The notes under the pieces are model-generated. The model saw only the letters and a list, made by a program, of their open reading frames with translations. It had not been told where the DNA came from and did not search any database. This document shows, one piece after another, positions 44,561 to 55,891 of a DNA stretch of 64,000 bases. This DNA is from Nitratidesulfovibrio sp. SRB-5 (GTDB taxonomy: Bacteria > Desulfobacterota > Desulfovibrionia > Desulfovibrionales > Desulfovibrionaceae), in contig NZ_JAIOTY010000001.1 in the NCBI RefSeq assembly GCF_019931275.1, forward strand, positions 434,001 through 498,000. Reading direction: 5' to 3'. Position 1 is the first letter of the stretch. Each line of letters starts with the position of its first letter. A program made the translations under genes and the position numbers.

Positions 44561-45538
<978 letters not shown>

Positions 45539-48035: not shown

Positions 48036-49412
48036 ATGCTGCTCAGACATACCCCGACGGAAATCAAGGAGCGCTCGGCGCTCAACATCAACCCGGCCAA
48101 GACCTGCCAGCCCATCGGCGCCATGTACGCGGGCCTGGGCATCAAGGGCTGCCTGCCGCACAGCCACGGCTCGCAGGGCTGCTGCGCCTACCACCGCAGC
48201 ACCCTGACCCGCCACTACAAGGAACCCGTGTCGGCGGCCACCAGCTCGTTCACCGAAGGCGCGTCCGTGTTCGGCGGCCAGGCCAACCTGTTGCAGGCCA
48301 TCGAGAACATCTTCTCGGTGTACGAACCGGAAATCATCGCGGTGCACACCACCTGCCTGTCCGAAACCATTGGCGACGACCTGAACCAGATCGTCGACAA
48401 GGCGGTGAAGGAAGGCAAGGTGCCCGCGGGCAAGCAGGTGATCTTTGCCTCCACGCCCAGCTACGTGGGTTCGCACGTCACCGGCTTCTCCAACATGGTC
48501 AAGGGCATGGTGAAGTGCCTGGCCGTTGCTTCCGGCAAGAAGAACGGCAAGGTCAACATCATCCCCGGCTGGGTGGAACCTGCGGACATGGAGGAGATCA
48601 AGCGCATCGCCGGCATGATCGGCGTGTCCTTCACCATGTTCCCCGACACCTCTGGCGTGCTCAACGGCCCGCTGACCGGCGAGTACCACATGTTCCCCGA
48701 TGCGGGCACCCCGGCAGAGGACATCCGCGCCGCGGGCGATGCCATCGGCACCCTGGCCCTTGGCGAATGGTGTTCCGCCGATGCGGCCCGCACCCTGGAT
48801 GCGCAGTGCAAGGTGCCCTGCCGGGTGCTGGACCTGCCCATCGGCCTGAAGGCCACCGACCGCTTCATCGACGCCCTGCGCACCGTGGCAGGCACCTCGG
48901 TGCCCGACACCGTGAACTTCGAACGCGGCCAGCTCATCGACGTCATTTCCGACTACCACCAGTACTTCTTCGGCAAGAAGGTGGCTCTGGTGGGCGACCC
49001 GGACCAGCTCATCGCGCTGACCGAGTTCCTGCTGACGCTCGACATGCAGCCCGTCCACGTGGTTACCGGCACGCCGGGCAAGAAGTTCGAGGCGCGCATC
49101 AGGGAACTGTGCGCGGGCAAGGGCTTTGACGTCAACGTGCGCGCCGCGGGCGACATGTTCCTGCTCCACCAGTGGATCAAGAACGAGCCCGTCGATCTCA
49201 TCATGGGCAACACCTACTGCAAGTACATCGCCCGTGACGAGGACATTCCCCACGTGCGCTTCGGCTTCCCCATCATGGACCGGGTGGGCCACCAGTACTT
49301 CCCGGTGACGGGGTACAAGGGCGGCATCCGGCTGATGGAAAAGATCCTGGGCGTCCTGCTCGACCGTGCCGACCGGGATGCGCCGGAAGAGAAGTTCGAA
49401 CTCGTCTACTAG
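48036..49412 (+). CDS. nifK: Nitrogenase molybdenum-iron protein beta chain
   Basis: 458 residues, the short clostridial-type beta chain lacking the N-terminal extension of Azotobacter NifK. P-cluster cysteines are visible in NPAKTCQPIGAMYA, HGSQGCCAYHRS and HTTCLSETIGDD. It pairs with NifD in the alpha2-beta2 tetramer. It lies 21 bp after nifD. A dispersed hairpin repeat starts directly at its stop codon and fills most of the 300-bp gap before the next gene. Confidence 0.98.
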   Translation: MLLRHTPTEIKERSALNINPAKTCQPIGAMYAGLGIKGCLPHSHGSQGCCAYHRSTLTRHYKEPVSAATSSFTEGASVFGGQANLLQAIENIFSVYEPEIIAVHTTCLSETIGDDLNQIVDKAVKEGKVPAGKQVIFASTPSYVGSHVTGFSNMVKGMVKCLAVASGKKNGKVNIIPGWVEPADMEEIKRIAGMIGVSFTMFPDTSGVLNGPLTGEYHMFPDAGTPAEDIRAAGDAIGTLALGEWCSADAARTLDAQCKVPCRVLDLPIGLKATDRFIDALRTVAGTSVPDTVNFERGQLIDVISDYHQYFFGKKVALVGDPDQLIALTEFLLTLDMQPVHVVTGTPGKKFEARIRELCAGKGFDVNVRAAGDMFLLHQWIKNEPVDLIMGNTYCKYIARDEDIPHVRFGFPIMDRVGHQYFPVTGYKGGIRLMEKILGVLLDRADRDAPEEKFELVY

Positions 49413-49627
49413 GGCGTGTGGTCACGAGCGTCCTTTTGCCCTCTGCCTGACCGACCCGAAGGGCGCGAAGCGTGCCCGTTGGGCGAGCTTGCGAGCCCCA
49501 CGGACATCGAGCGCAAAGCGGTCAGAACAAGTTTTTATTCCGGTCACGTACGGGAAGAGTACGCTCCCTCCGTAAAAAATTGTTCTTCCTTGGCAGAGCA
49601 CAAAAATCCTGCTCGTGACGACACACC
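49413..49627 (+). repeat. Dispersed post-stop hairpin repeat, copy 5 (nifK-NifB-like)
   Basis: The largest copy, starting at the base after the nifK stop. Outer arms GGTCACGAGC/GCTCGTGAC; inner CCTTTTGCCCTCTGCC/GGCAGAGCACAAAAA. The loop has CCGGTCACGTAC, GGGAAGA, GTACGCTCCC. A module of about 70 bp (GTTGGGCGAGCTTGCGAGCC and flanks) is inserted in the left arm and recurs in copies 4 and 6. Confidence 0.8.
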
Positions 49628-49711
49628 AAGCACCCGCATCCTTTCCGCCCGGCGCCGTTTGACACCACACGGAGCCACCCGGCGCCGGGCGGAGAACCCC
49701 ACGGAGACACC

Positions 49712-50950
49712 ATGAGCGGCGCACCCCACTGTATGCACACGAACGGACGTCCCGGCGGCTGGCTGCTGCTGCCCGTGGCGCCGCGTTCCAACGCCCGCAG
49801 CCGCCATGGCGATCCGGGCGTGAGCACCCCGTGCGCCTGCGGAACGCAGCCCGCATCCCCAGCCATGCTGCCGCACGAAGCGCTGGAACACCTGCGCACG
49901 GTCATGGAATCGGGCGCGGTGGTGAACACGGTGGGCGTTGCCGGCCCCGGCGACCCGTTTGCCGTGCCCCACCGCACTCTGGAAACCCTGCATCTGGTGC
50001 GCGCCGCCTACCCGCACATCACCCTGTGCGTGACCACCAACGGCCTTGGCGTGGCCAGCCATGTCGCCGCCCTGACCGAGCTTGGCGTTGGCCACGTCAC
50101 CCTGCTCATGGACGCCGTGGACCCGGAACTGGTGGACACCCTGTATGCGTGGATACGCCCCGGCACCCGCACCCTGCGGCCCGGCGAAGGCGCCGCGCTG
50201 CTCGTGGACGAGCAGGCCGTGGCCCTTGCCGCGCTGGTCAGGGCGGGCATCGAGGTGACGGTGTGCGTCACCGTGTACCCCGGCATCAACGACGCCCACG
50301 TGGGCGACATTGCCGCCGCCGCCAAGGTGCTGGGCGCCTCGGGCATCTACGTGCTGCCCTTCGTGCCTGCCGACGCCGCCGCAGGCCCCGTGCCCGCCGC
50401 CGACGCGGCCACCATGGACGCCGCCCGCAACGCGGCAGCCGCCTTTCTGCCCGTGCTCGACGCCTCTGCCCGCGACGGCCTGCCCGTCGCGCGGCGCACC
50501 GGCATGGGATGCGGCGAACCCGTGGCCGTCACCGCCGGTTCCGGCCTGCCGCTGCCCGGCGGCAACCGCCCGTATGTGGCCGTGGCCAGCAGCGACGGCT
50601 TTGAAGTGGACGAACACCTTGGCCACGCCCGCCAGTTTCTGGTGTACGGGCCAAAGGATGGTCCCCAGACCGGTTCCATGGCCAGTTCCATGACCGGTCC
50701 GGTGGAGCTTCTGGGCGTGCGCCCGGCACCGCCCGCCGGTTCCGGCGACGCCCGGTGGGAGGCGCTGGCCGCCGTCCTGTCCGACTGCGCCTACCTGCTG
50801 GTGTCCAGCGCGGGCCAGCGGCCCGTGGAATGCCTGGCGGGCAAGGGGCTGCGCGTCATCCAGACCGAAGACAACATCGAAGGCCTCGTGGACGTGCTCT
50901 ACGGGGGTGGCAAGAAAGGCAAGAACCGCGGCAAGGGCCGCACAGTCTAG
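49712..50950 (+). CDS. NifB-like protein lacking radical-SAM cysteines, with C-terminal NifX-like domain
   Basis: 412 residues that align with NifB of this cluster along the whole length: VGVAGPGDPFAVPHRTLETL with VIGIAGPGDPMANPAETLETL-type sequence, then TTNGLGV, VDPELVDTLYAWI and VYPGINDAHV. The radical-SAM CxxxCxxC at Cys33, 37 and 40 of NifB reads Ser26, Ser30 and Gly33 here (PRSNARSRHG), and the HCKRC cysteines are gone too. From about residue 286 a NifX/NifB-C-terminal cofactor-binding domain follows (NRPYVAVASSDGFEVDEHLG). A catalytic NifB role is excluded; a carrier, scaffold or chaperone for cofactor intermediates is plausible. CGGAGA precedes the ATG. Confidence 0.85.
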   Translation: MSGAPHCMHTNGRPGGWLLLPVAPRSNARSRHGDPGVSTPCACGTQPASPAMLPHEALEHLRTVMESGAVVNTVGVAGPGDPFAVPHRTLETLHLVRAAYPHITLCVTTNGLGVASHVAALTELGVGHVTLLMDAVDPELVDTLYAWIRPGTRTLRPGEGAALLVDEQAVALAALVRAGIEVTVCVTVYPGINDAHVGDIAAAAKVLGASGIYVLPFVPADAAAGPVPAADAATMDAARNAAAAFLPVLDASARDGLPVARRTGMGCGEPVAVTAGSGLPLPGGNRPYVAVASSDGFEVDEHLGHARQFLVYGPKDGPQTGSMASSMTGPVELLGVRPAPPAGSGDARWEALAAVLSDCAYLLVSSAGQRPVECLAGKGLRVIQTEDNIEGLVDVLYGGGKKGKNRGKGRTV

Positions 50951-50974: not shown

Positions 50975-51277
50975 ATGCCCAAGCCGACGCATCAGATTCT
51001 CGTGTGCCAGAGCTTCCGTCACAAGGGCGAACCCAAGGGCGTCTGTTTCAAGCAGACCGACGGGTTCCTGCAGTACCTCGAAGAGGAAATCCTTGATCGC
51101 GGGCTGGACATCCTGGTCACCGCCACCGGGTGTCTGAAGGCCTGCGAGGAAGGCCCCGTCCTCGTGGTGCAGCCGCAGAACTGGTGGTTCAAGGGCGTGG
51201 ACAGCCACGACGCCATCGATGCCATCCTCGACGGCATCGAAGACGGCGAACCCAATGCCGACTACCTGATGTACTGA
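50975..51277 (+). CDS. Thioredoxin-like [2Fe-2S] ferredoxin of the nif cluster
   Basis: 100 residues with Cys11, Cys24, Cys53 and Cys57, the spacing of the thioredoxin-fold [2Fe-2S] ferredoxins. The Clostridium pasteurianum 2Fe ferredoxin is of the same size and type and is known to interact with the MoFe protein. Here the gene lies between the NifB-like gene and nifE, 24 bp after the former. A role in electron supply to nitrogenase or in cofactor assembly fits. GGAGAGGAAGG precedes the ATG. Confidence 0.92.
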   Translation: MPKPTHQILVCQSFRHKGEPKGVCFKQTDGFLQYLEEEILDRGLDILVTATGCLKACEEGPVLVVQPQNWWFKGVDSHDAIDAILDGIEDGEPNADYLMY

Positions 51278-54607: not shown

Positions 54608-55891
54608 ATGAAGCCGCTGCGCACCACCCCCCCCGGCCATCCGTGCTTTGATCACAACAGCGCCTCGTCCTGCGGTCGTGTCCATGTTCCCGTGGCGCCC
54701 AGGTGCAACATCCAGTGCGGGTACTGCAACCGCAAGTACGACTGCGTCAACGAATCGCGCCCCGGCGTGACCAGCGCGGTGCTTTCGCCGCGCCAGGCCC
54801 TGGAGTACGTGGACAAGGTGCTGGCGGCGGACCCGCGCATCACCGTCATCGGCATCGCCGGCCCCGGCGACCCCATGGCCAACCCGGCGGAAACGCTGGA
54901 AACGCTGCGGCTGGTGCATGAAAGGCATCCCGAACTGCTGTTCTGTCTCTCGTCCAACGGCCTTGGCCTGCCGCCGCATCTCGACCGGCTGAAGGAACTG
55001 GGCGTCACCCACGTCACCGTCACCATCAACGCGGTGGACCCGGCCATCGGCGAAAAGCTGTATTCCTGGGTGCGCGACGACAAGGTGGTCTGGCGTGGCC
55101 GCGAGGCGGCGGAATTGCTGCTTGCGCGCCAGCTCGAATCGGTGCGCGGCCTTGTGGAGCGCGGCATGGTCGTCAAGGTCAACACCATCCTGGTGCCCGG
55201 CGTGAACGACCACCACGTGGAAGAGGTGGCGCGCGTGGTGGGCGAACTGGGGGCCACCATCCAGAACATCATTCCGCTGAAGCCCACGGCGGATACCCCG
55301 CTGGCCCACCTGCCGGAACCGGACGCCGCCGCCGTCAACGCGGCGCGCAAGGGCGCGGGCGGGCACATTTCGCAGATGACCCACTGCAAGCGCTGCCGCG
55401 CCGATGCCGTGGGCCTGCTGCACGAGGACAAGTCCGCCGAGATGGCCGAAACCCTGCGCGCCTGCGCCGCCAGCAAGACCGAAGAAGCGGAACGCCCCTA
55501 CGTGGCCGTGGCCACGCGCGAAGGCATGCTGGTCAACCAGCACCTGGGCGAGGCCGCCCGGTTTCAGGTCTGGGGGCAGGGGGCGAGCGGCTTCTACCTC
55601 GTGGAGGAACGCCTTGCGCCCAAGCCCGGCTGCGGCCCGGAACGCTGGAAGCAGGTGGCCCATACCCTGCGCGATTGCCGCGCCCTGCTGTGCGCCGCCT
55701 TTGGCGCGCACCCGGAAGGGATTCTGGTGGCCGCCGGGGTGAAGCCCGTCGAGGCCTCCGGCTTCATCGAGGATGCACTGGAGGTGGTCTTCGGCAACGG
55801 CAACACCGCTCCGTTGCGTGGCCGCAAGGGCGGCGTGGGCAAGACCTCGTGCGCAGGGGGCGGGTGTCGCGGCACCGGCGAGGGCTGTTAG
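54608..55891 (+). CDS. nifB: Radical SAM protein NifB with C-terminal NifX-like domain
   Basis: 427 residues. The radical-SAM motif lies at Cys33, Cys37 and Cys40 (PRCNIQCGYC), followed by a second cysteine pair in THCKRCRAD; these build NifB-co, the 8Fe-9S-carbide precursor of FeMo-co. From about residue 295 comes a NifX-like cofactor-binding domain (ERPYVAVATREGMLVNQHLG). The tail is Cys/Gly-rich (TSCAGGGCRGTGEGC). AAGGAG precedes the ATG, 20 bases after nifN. A dispersed hairpin repeat begins at the stop codon. Confidence 0.97.
   Translation: MKPLRTTPPGHPCFDHNSASSCGRVHVPVAPRCNIQCGYCNRKYDCVNESRPGVTSAVLSPRQALEYVDKVLAADPRITVIGIAGPGDPMANPAETLETLRLVHERHPELLFCLSSNGLGLPPHLDRLKELGVTHVTVTINAVDPAIGEKLYSWVRDDKVVWRGREAAELLLARQLESVRGLVERGMVVKVNTILVPGVNDHHVEEVARVVGELGATIQNIIPLKPTADTPLAHLPEPDAAAVNAARKGAGGHISQMTHCKRCRADAVGLLHEDKSAEMAETLRACAASKTEEAERPYVAVATREGMLVNQHLGEAARFQVWGQGASGFYLVEERLAPKPGCGPERWKQVAHTLRDCRALLCAAFGAHPEGILVAAGVKPVEASGFIEDALEVVFGNGNTAPLRGRKGGVGKTSCAGGGCRGTGEGC

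Follow-up and report, generated by a model that had tools for sequence, protein, structure and literature searches.

The window analysed here, the whole stretch of 64,000 nucleotides from Nitratidesulfovibrio sp. SRB-5, contains a nif operon with the gene order nifK, a gene for a NifB-like protein that we refer to as pseudo-NifB, a ferredoxin-type gene, nifE, nifN and nifB. The features of interest are the following, with NifB residues numbered throughout as in the NifB of this operon, onto which ligands known from the literature were mapped in this analysis:

48036-49412, + strand: nifK, the upstream neighbour
49712-50950, + strand: gene for pseudo-NifB, a putative NifX-like carrier of 412 residues
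49712-50521, + strand: NifB-derived radical-SAM-like domain, residues ~1-270, without the SAM-cluster ligands (Pfam Radical_SAM and Foldseek)
49730-49732, + strand: C7, aligned with NifB C13 (HPC motif; equivalent to the bridging K-cluster ligand C18 of MthNifB) in two alignments, the N-terminal alignment being uncertain and another placing H6 there
49787-49810, + strand: S26, S30 and G33, replacing NifB C33, C37 and C40 (CxxxCxxC) in the alignments
50027-50029, + strand: C106, aligned with NifB C113 (equivalent to the K1 ligand C115 of MthNifB)
50567-50905, + strand: NifX-like domain, residues ~286-398 (Pfam Nitro_FeMo-Co at 298-392; Foldseek match to NifX 9ian_F)
50615-50617, + strand: H302, aligned with the NifB-co ligand H35 of Azotobacter NifX (phmmer against 9ian_E)
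50903-50947, + strand: basic C-terminal tail, the last 15 residues (from residue charges)
50975-51277, + strand: 2Fe-2S ferredoxin-type protein, the downstream neighbour, scoring below the NCBIfam cut-offs
54608-55891, + strand: genuine NifB with all cluster ligands present (score over cut-off and ligand alignment)

The pseudo-NifB frame is open throughout from an ATG start preceded at 5 nt by GGAG, and lies 299 nt downstream of nifK and 24 nt upstream of the ferredoxin-type gene. Its product aligns over its full length with the operon NifB (34% identity over 420 columns, BLASTP E 7e-66), which rules out a chance resemblance, and residues 41-201 score over the cut-off of the Pfam Radical_SAM model (PF04055, 34.0 bits against 29.5). 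With the NifB equivalog model (TIGR01290), however, pseudo-NifB reaches 156.9 bits, under half of the cut-off of 343.65, whereas the genuine NifB scores 398.3 bits. In MthNifB, C18 is reported to bridge the K cluster, with H31 and C115 as K1 ligands and C260 and C263 as K2 ligands, and in MtNifB C62 is reported as the fourth SAM-cluster ligand and E65 as a K1 ligand (PMC9692996). Besides the CxxxCxxC cysteines, pseudo-NifB has lost the fourth SAM-cluster ligand C46, which is a threonine, the K1 histidine H26, which is a leucine, and the second cysteine pair C260/C263. For the NifB motifs of Arragain et al. (2017), PHC with C7 is aligned in place of HPC, and both ExRP and Cx2CRxDAxG (the CxxC pair) are absent. 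As judged from the alignments, pseudo-NifB itself retains from the NifB cluster-ligand set only C106 and, likely, C7, and because the other ligands are absent SAM cleavage by this protein would not be expected. It is a member of the radical SAM superfamily by fold and homology. A plain second NifB is ruled out by the equivalog score, the ligand loss and the SAM-domain tree described below.

The structure models are of low-to-middling confidence (mean pLDDT 61.4 and 58.3, with only 8 and 7 sequences aligned). A Foldseek search with the low-confidence model of pseudo-NifB (pLDDT ~61) returned NifB crystal structures as the best matches (7jma, TM 0.86 by target length), and also NifX 9ian_F (E 1.9e-4). 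The C-terminal part scores over the cut-off of the Nitro_FeMo-Co model (PF02579, residues 298-392, 33.7 bits against 26.3) but far below that of the NifX equivalog (18.0 bits against 112). The alignment of H302 with H35 of NifX is weak as a pairwise match (phmmer, 9ian_E, E 0.12), and the stretch around the histidine is clear. The initial annotation had described an intact frame with a good ribosome binding site between nifK and the ferredoxin and nifE genes, alignable with the real NifB over its full length, with Ser26, Ser30 and Gly33 at the CxxxCxxC positions and the second cysteine pair lost as well, and a radical-SAM fold fused to a NifX-like domain; all of these statements are borne out by the alignment with the operon NifB, the gene order, the two Pfam domains and the Foldseek matches to both NifB and NifX.

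In this genome no protein matches over the cut-off of the NifX model. There are three stand-alone PF02579 matches outside the nif operon (L104, L105 and L108), and the MrpORP model is matched in its C-terminal part by the L104 protein. Within the operon, the leader between nifK and the pseudo-NifB gene (49413-49711, 299 nt), taken with 49 nt of the gene, is predicted to fold far better than shuffled sequences (z -5.95); the ~30 nt immediately preceding the start codon are nearly invariant across the loci of the genus (7 of 7), and 3 of the 7 lack a block of ~70 nt. The nif operon gave no match in Rfam, and a scan for sigma-70 promoters found 0 against 1.3 expected. Matches to a sigma-54 consensus pattern numbered 21, fewer than the 42.6 expected, although one of them, with one mismatch, lies at 44600 upstream of nifH.

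To establish the spread of the gene we searched 288 genomes of the family, of which 147 had a NifB-type match at E <= 1e-20, and located the paralogue in 80 of these (our own included) from 16 genera, in some cases as fragments at contig ends. A further 14 genomes, from six other families of the phylum, also carry it (94 genomes altogether); these come from 395 genomes drawn in the phylum, which bounded the genome search, and from the 20 high-scoring places chosen for inspection. Presence in 80 + 14 genomes rules out a sequencing artefact or a local pseudogene. A contig scan that used patterns of the pseudo-NifB protein only gave Nitratidesulfovibrio and Desulfovibrio records as its closest named relatives, and in a plasmid search the matches among the 30 listed of 244 records carried the annotation NifB or radical SAM protein, or had no gene annotated there.

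The position of the paralogue is fixed. Of the 90 loci in which nifK, the paralogue and one further gene are visible, all 90 have the order nifK, paralogue, ferredoxin gene, in our own family and the six others; 85 of these are labelled as paralogue and 5 as NifB-like by best match (including three of the four motif-keeping copies discussed below), some loci share one genome, and 5 more are cut by contig ends. With genes sorted by matched position, the paralogue lies directly 3' of nifK in every locus showing both. In operons that lack it, the gene immediately after nifK is the ferredoxin gene in 16 loci, including two Nitratidesulfovibrio vulgaris plasmids, and nifE in 4, and none of these 16 + 4 loci has a stand-alone NifX between nifK and the next gene. 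Given this absence from many nif operons, the paralogue is common but dispensable over evolution, that is, accessory. In the single genome of genus g17 that we examined, which lacks the paralogue, a single open frame of ~938 residues spans nifN and nifB (L195:13334-16147), and frames of comparable length contain the other g17 matches. On the plasmid of N. vulgaris DP4, the annotation places drt2 (an antiviral reverse transcriptase) immediately 3' of the NifB gene (L014:11823-13106).

With identical proteins collapsed and fragments shorter than 300 residues dropped, the family comprises 91 full-length copies, which were chosen as open frames; the SAM-cluster triad is missing from 87 of them and kept in four. 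The paralogue rows were defined by absence of the triad, with the four motif-keeping copies added by place, so that only single-column counts are informative there. Among the 87 triad-less copies, the SAM-cluster ligands are retained in 0 (C33), 5 (C37), 1 (C40) and 0 (C46), the K1-site residues in 61 (C13), 61 (H26), 56 (C113) and 1 (E49), and the K2 residues in 3 (C260) and 74 (C263). H11, C13, H26, C46, C113, C260 and C263 are each present in 98 of 98 NifB rows; these were chosen by the presence of the triad and therefore cannot serve as an independent control for it. CxxxCxxC is present in the full-length downstream NifB ORFs. The four motif-keeping copies, from genera g34 and g35 (L075:8026-9234, L076:5183-6508, L152:9756-11120 and L153:6499-7860), occupy the usual slot and are the reverse of the common type, keeping CxxxCxxC and C46 and having lost C13 and C113. 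The full NifB ligand set is kept in 0 of the 91 copies.

Because an engineered NifB with the K1 ligands only is reported still to bind a [4Fe-4S] cluster, and one with the SAM and K2 modules still to transfer a methyl group to K2 (PMC6053413), cluster binding would be conceivable, by analogy, for the majority type of paralogue and continued use of SAM for the g34 type, but neither should make NifB-co alone. The binding by K1-only NifB, together with the retention of C13, H26 and C113 in most triad-less copies and their near-complete retention in genus g37 (28/28, 28/28 and 27/28), would suit a scaffold that uses a conserved K1 site to load or store a [4Fe-4S] cluster for NifB. We nevertheless consider such a scaffold distinctly improbable: the site has decayed in the window's genus, in g2, in the other families (in f21, H26 and C113 persist while C13 is gone) and to some extent in g24 (where C113 is lost), and the K1 glutamate E49 and the K2 cysteine C260 are almost absent from the family. 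We dropped the idea of a family-wide K1 site: g37 and g33 conform to it, whereas the window's genus and the majority of other lineages do not.

The histidine equivalent to H302, on the other hand, is present in 91 of the 91 full-length copies (87/87 triad-less and 4/4 motif-keeping). In the cryo-EM structure of NifEN-NifX its counterpart H35 is reported to coordinate NifB-co, and NifY and NafX are described in the same source as having the same fold without the histidine (PMC13128457), so the residue is not simply a requirement of the fold. Among columns at least 97% conserved in NifB, the genus-weighted median retention in the paralogues is 0.98 for the 20 columns of the NifX-like part (from residue 290) and 0.35 for the 79 of the SAM domain. 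At the level of sequence, the invariant NifX-type histidine makes NifB-co binding by pseudo-NifB more likely. The last 15 residues of the paralogues have a median net charge of +5 (range -2 to 7), compared with 0 in NifB. The C-terminal residues D144-E158 of NifX bind a positive patch of NifE in the cryo-EM structure (PMC13128457), and with a basic tail on the paralogue the docking must differ from that of NifX.

Selection was estimated by the Nei-Gojobori method on within-genus pairs with 0.05 < dS < 1.2; the pairs are not independent and GC3 is high (0.86). Median dN/dS is 0.40 for the dead domain of the paralogue (338 pairs, largest 1.03) and 0.29 for its NifX-like domain (286 pairs, largest 0.76); the corresponding medians in NifB are 0.146 for the SAM domain (328 pairs, largest 0.56) and 0.244 for the NifX-like domain (259 pairs, largest 0.60). 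Hence, from 0.40 against 0.146, the dead domain is constrained but relaxed compared with NifB. This relaxation, with the largest pair at 1.03, absence from many nif operons and erosion by several routes, could indicate a decaying duplicate without present function, although medians well below 1, an invariant NifX-like core, full-length open copies in many families and the fixed slot make decay highly improbable. The initial annotation, which saw a maintained pseudoenzyme and looked to orthologues for missing cysteines and purifying selection, is thus partly supported. Maintenance is backed by 94 genomes, the slot and both paralogue medians, the triad is missing from most orthologues and purifying selection acts on the dead domain in most pairs, but single pairs reach 1.03 and 0.76, and two of the refuting conditions named in that annotation speak against it, as the four g34/g35 orthologues keep CxxxCxxC (having lost K1 ligands instead) and the dead domain is clearly relaxed.

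In a tree of the SAM domain (97 of 190 rows, each genus contributing up to 4 paralogues and 2 NifB), the 45 paralogues and the four motif-keeping copies all fall outside the NifB clade (99 SH-aLRT), which holds 47 NifB and L003, a short NifB of our own genome; the motif-keeping copies adjoin NifB. In the NifX-domain tree (90 rows) NifB also stands apart (98 SH-aLRT, with the contig-end NifB piece L181), and the paralogues do not form one side of a branch, L078 and L080 being placed next to NifB at 87. Whether the paralogues arose once hinges on where the trees are rooted, and several long branches meet in the SAM-domain tree. L003 (C1:1040953-1041690) is the third NifB-like protein of this genome and consists of a SAM domain only; it keeps the cluster-ligand residues, groups with the two proteobacterial NifB included and adjoins a 4Fe-4S, membrane-type protein.

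The sister-family genus g46 (family f3) has a stand-alone NifX of 113-128 residues in the slot between nifK and the ferredoxin gene, in 3 loci examined out of 11 genomes with two matches. These proteins are 50-55% identical to residues 280-399 of pseudo-NifB (P0001), and in the NifX-domain tree they group with the Nitratidesulfovibrio paralogue (97 SH-aLRT) inside a 31-row group of paralogues (95), which rules out an unrelated NifX. Deletion of the dead NifB domain would be the simplest account, with transfer of the domain as an alternative. The suggestion in the initial annotation that the gene replaces a missing nifX is supported by both the lack of a NifX over the cut-off in our own genome and this stand-alone NifX, nested among paralogues, in the same slot. 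The g46 proteins also bear on a regulatory role, in which a NifB look-alike would compete or pair with NifB and so tune precursor flow. Retention of the NifB fold (in a low-confidence model), a separate gene in the same operon and purifying selection on the dead domain in most pairs are consistent with a regulator of this kind, but g46 lost the dead domain and kept the NifX part, the opposite of what a mimic of NifB predicts, and we judge it improbable.

Taken together, pseudo-NifB has lost the SAM-cluster ligands, has kept a NifX-like domain with its cofactor-binding histidine and occupies a fixed nif slot. Given that the established role of NifX-type domains with the histidine is reported to be the holding of NifB-co or FeMo-co (PMC13128457), we read pseudo-NifB as a NifX/NafY-type cofactor carrier with a dead NifB as its N-terminal module, a reading for which we see about as much reason for belief as for doubt. 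The SAM site, the K1 site or the entire domain is missing in one lineage or another, and whatever function persists through these losses must depend on the NifX-like part. In the proposed mechanism the NifX-like domain would hold NifB-co (8Fe-9S-C) through H302, the dead domain, most likely a docking module, would bring the carrier to NifB or to the face of NifEN on which NifB docks, a step that is the weakest link, and the cluster would then be handed over from the positioned carrier. In lineages with K1 ligands the dead domain may also hold a [4Fe-4S] cluster or the cluster itself.

Several observations count against the carrier, the basic tail with its implied difference from NifX docking among them. 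The domain proposed for docking is missing in g46, the paralogue is absent from many nif operons with no NifX in its place, and in the window's genus (15 pairs) dN/dS is 0.15-0.44 for the dead domain and 0.13-0.55 for the NifX-like domain, which is thus not the more constrained of the two. A NifX-like domain occurs in NifB too and is reported to be dispensable there (PMC5715403), so its retention in the paralogue could reflect something besides cargo binding.

By description, the architecture of pseudo-NifB parallels that of NafY, which also has an additional N-terminal domain in front of a histidine-bearing NifX-like domain; this N-terminal domain of NafY is of a different origin from that of pseudo-NifB and serves in NifDK binding. 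This parallel, and the place of the paralogue directly after nifK, would suit a chaperone whose dead-NifB domain binds apo-NifDK while the NifX-like domain brings finished FeMo-co into it. We think this unlikely, as the N-terminal module comes from NifB, which has been modelled with NifEN as its partner (PMC13031127), and gene order alone does not identify a partner. The likeness to NafY in the histidine-bearing C-terminal domain (PMC13128457) is one that the carrier shares.

Compared with known systems, pseudo-NifB is like NifB in its two-domain architecture, 34% identity and best fold matches, but is unlike it in lacking C33, C37, C40, C46, ExRP and Cx2CRxDAxG and in falling outside the NifB clade in both domain trees. 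With Azotobacter vinelandii NifX (9ian) it shares the NifX-like fold and the NifB-co histidine, and unlike NifX it has a 270-residue NifB-derived domain in front, a score below the equivalog cut-off and a basic tail where that of NifX binds a positive patch of NifE (PMC13128457). In the open-access literature searched we found no description of the gene as a NifB pseudoenzyme. Arragain et al. (2017) are reported to have cut NifB annotations by 28% by their count (390 to 289) for missing motifs; most of the discards lacked Cx3Cx2C, all had the NifX domain, and they were judged to be misnamed NifX (PMC5715403). Set alongside by description only, our paralogues are like these discards in being annotated NifB, lacking Cx3Cx2C and having a NifX domain, so such genes have probably been met before and set aside. 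Unlike the misnamed NifX of that account, the proteins described here have a NifB-derived first domain.

The transfer of NifB-co from NifB to NifEN has been seen structurally with NifX only recently. It is possible, though as a whole somewhat unlikely, that this unnamed, widespread nif gene is a radical-SAM pseudoenzyme turned cofactor-transfer adaptor, which docks like NifB on NifEN or NifB and passes on NifB-co from its own NifX-like domain, the SAM site and the cluster site having been lost by separate routes in separate lineages. If true, such a naturally occurring carrier on a dead-NifB base would reveal the sites at which NifB contacts its partners, and the family offers a natural series of variants (SAM site lost and K1 kept, SAM site kept and K1 lost, both lost, domain missing, gene absent). 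Annotations that name the paralogues NifB or radical SAM protein would inflate counts of NifB, with consequences for the minimal nif gene sets used in engineering.
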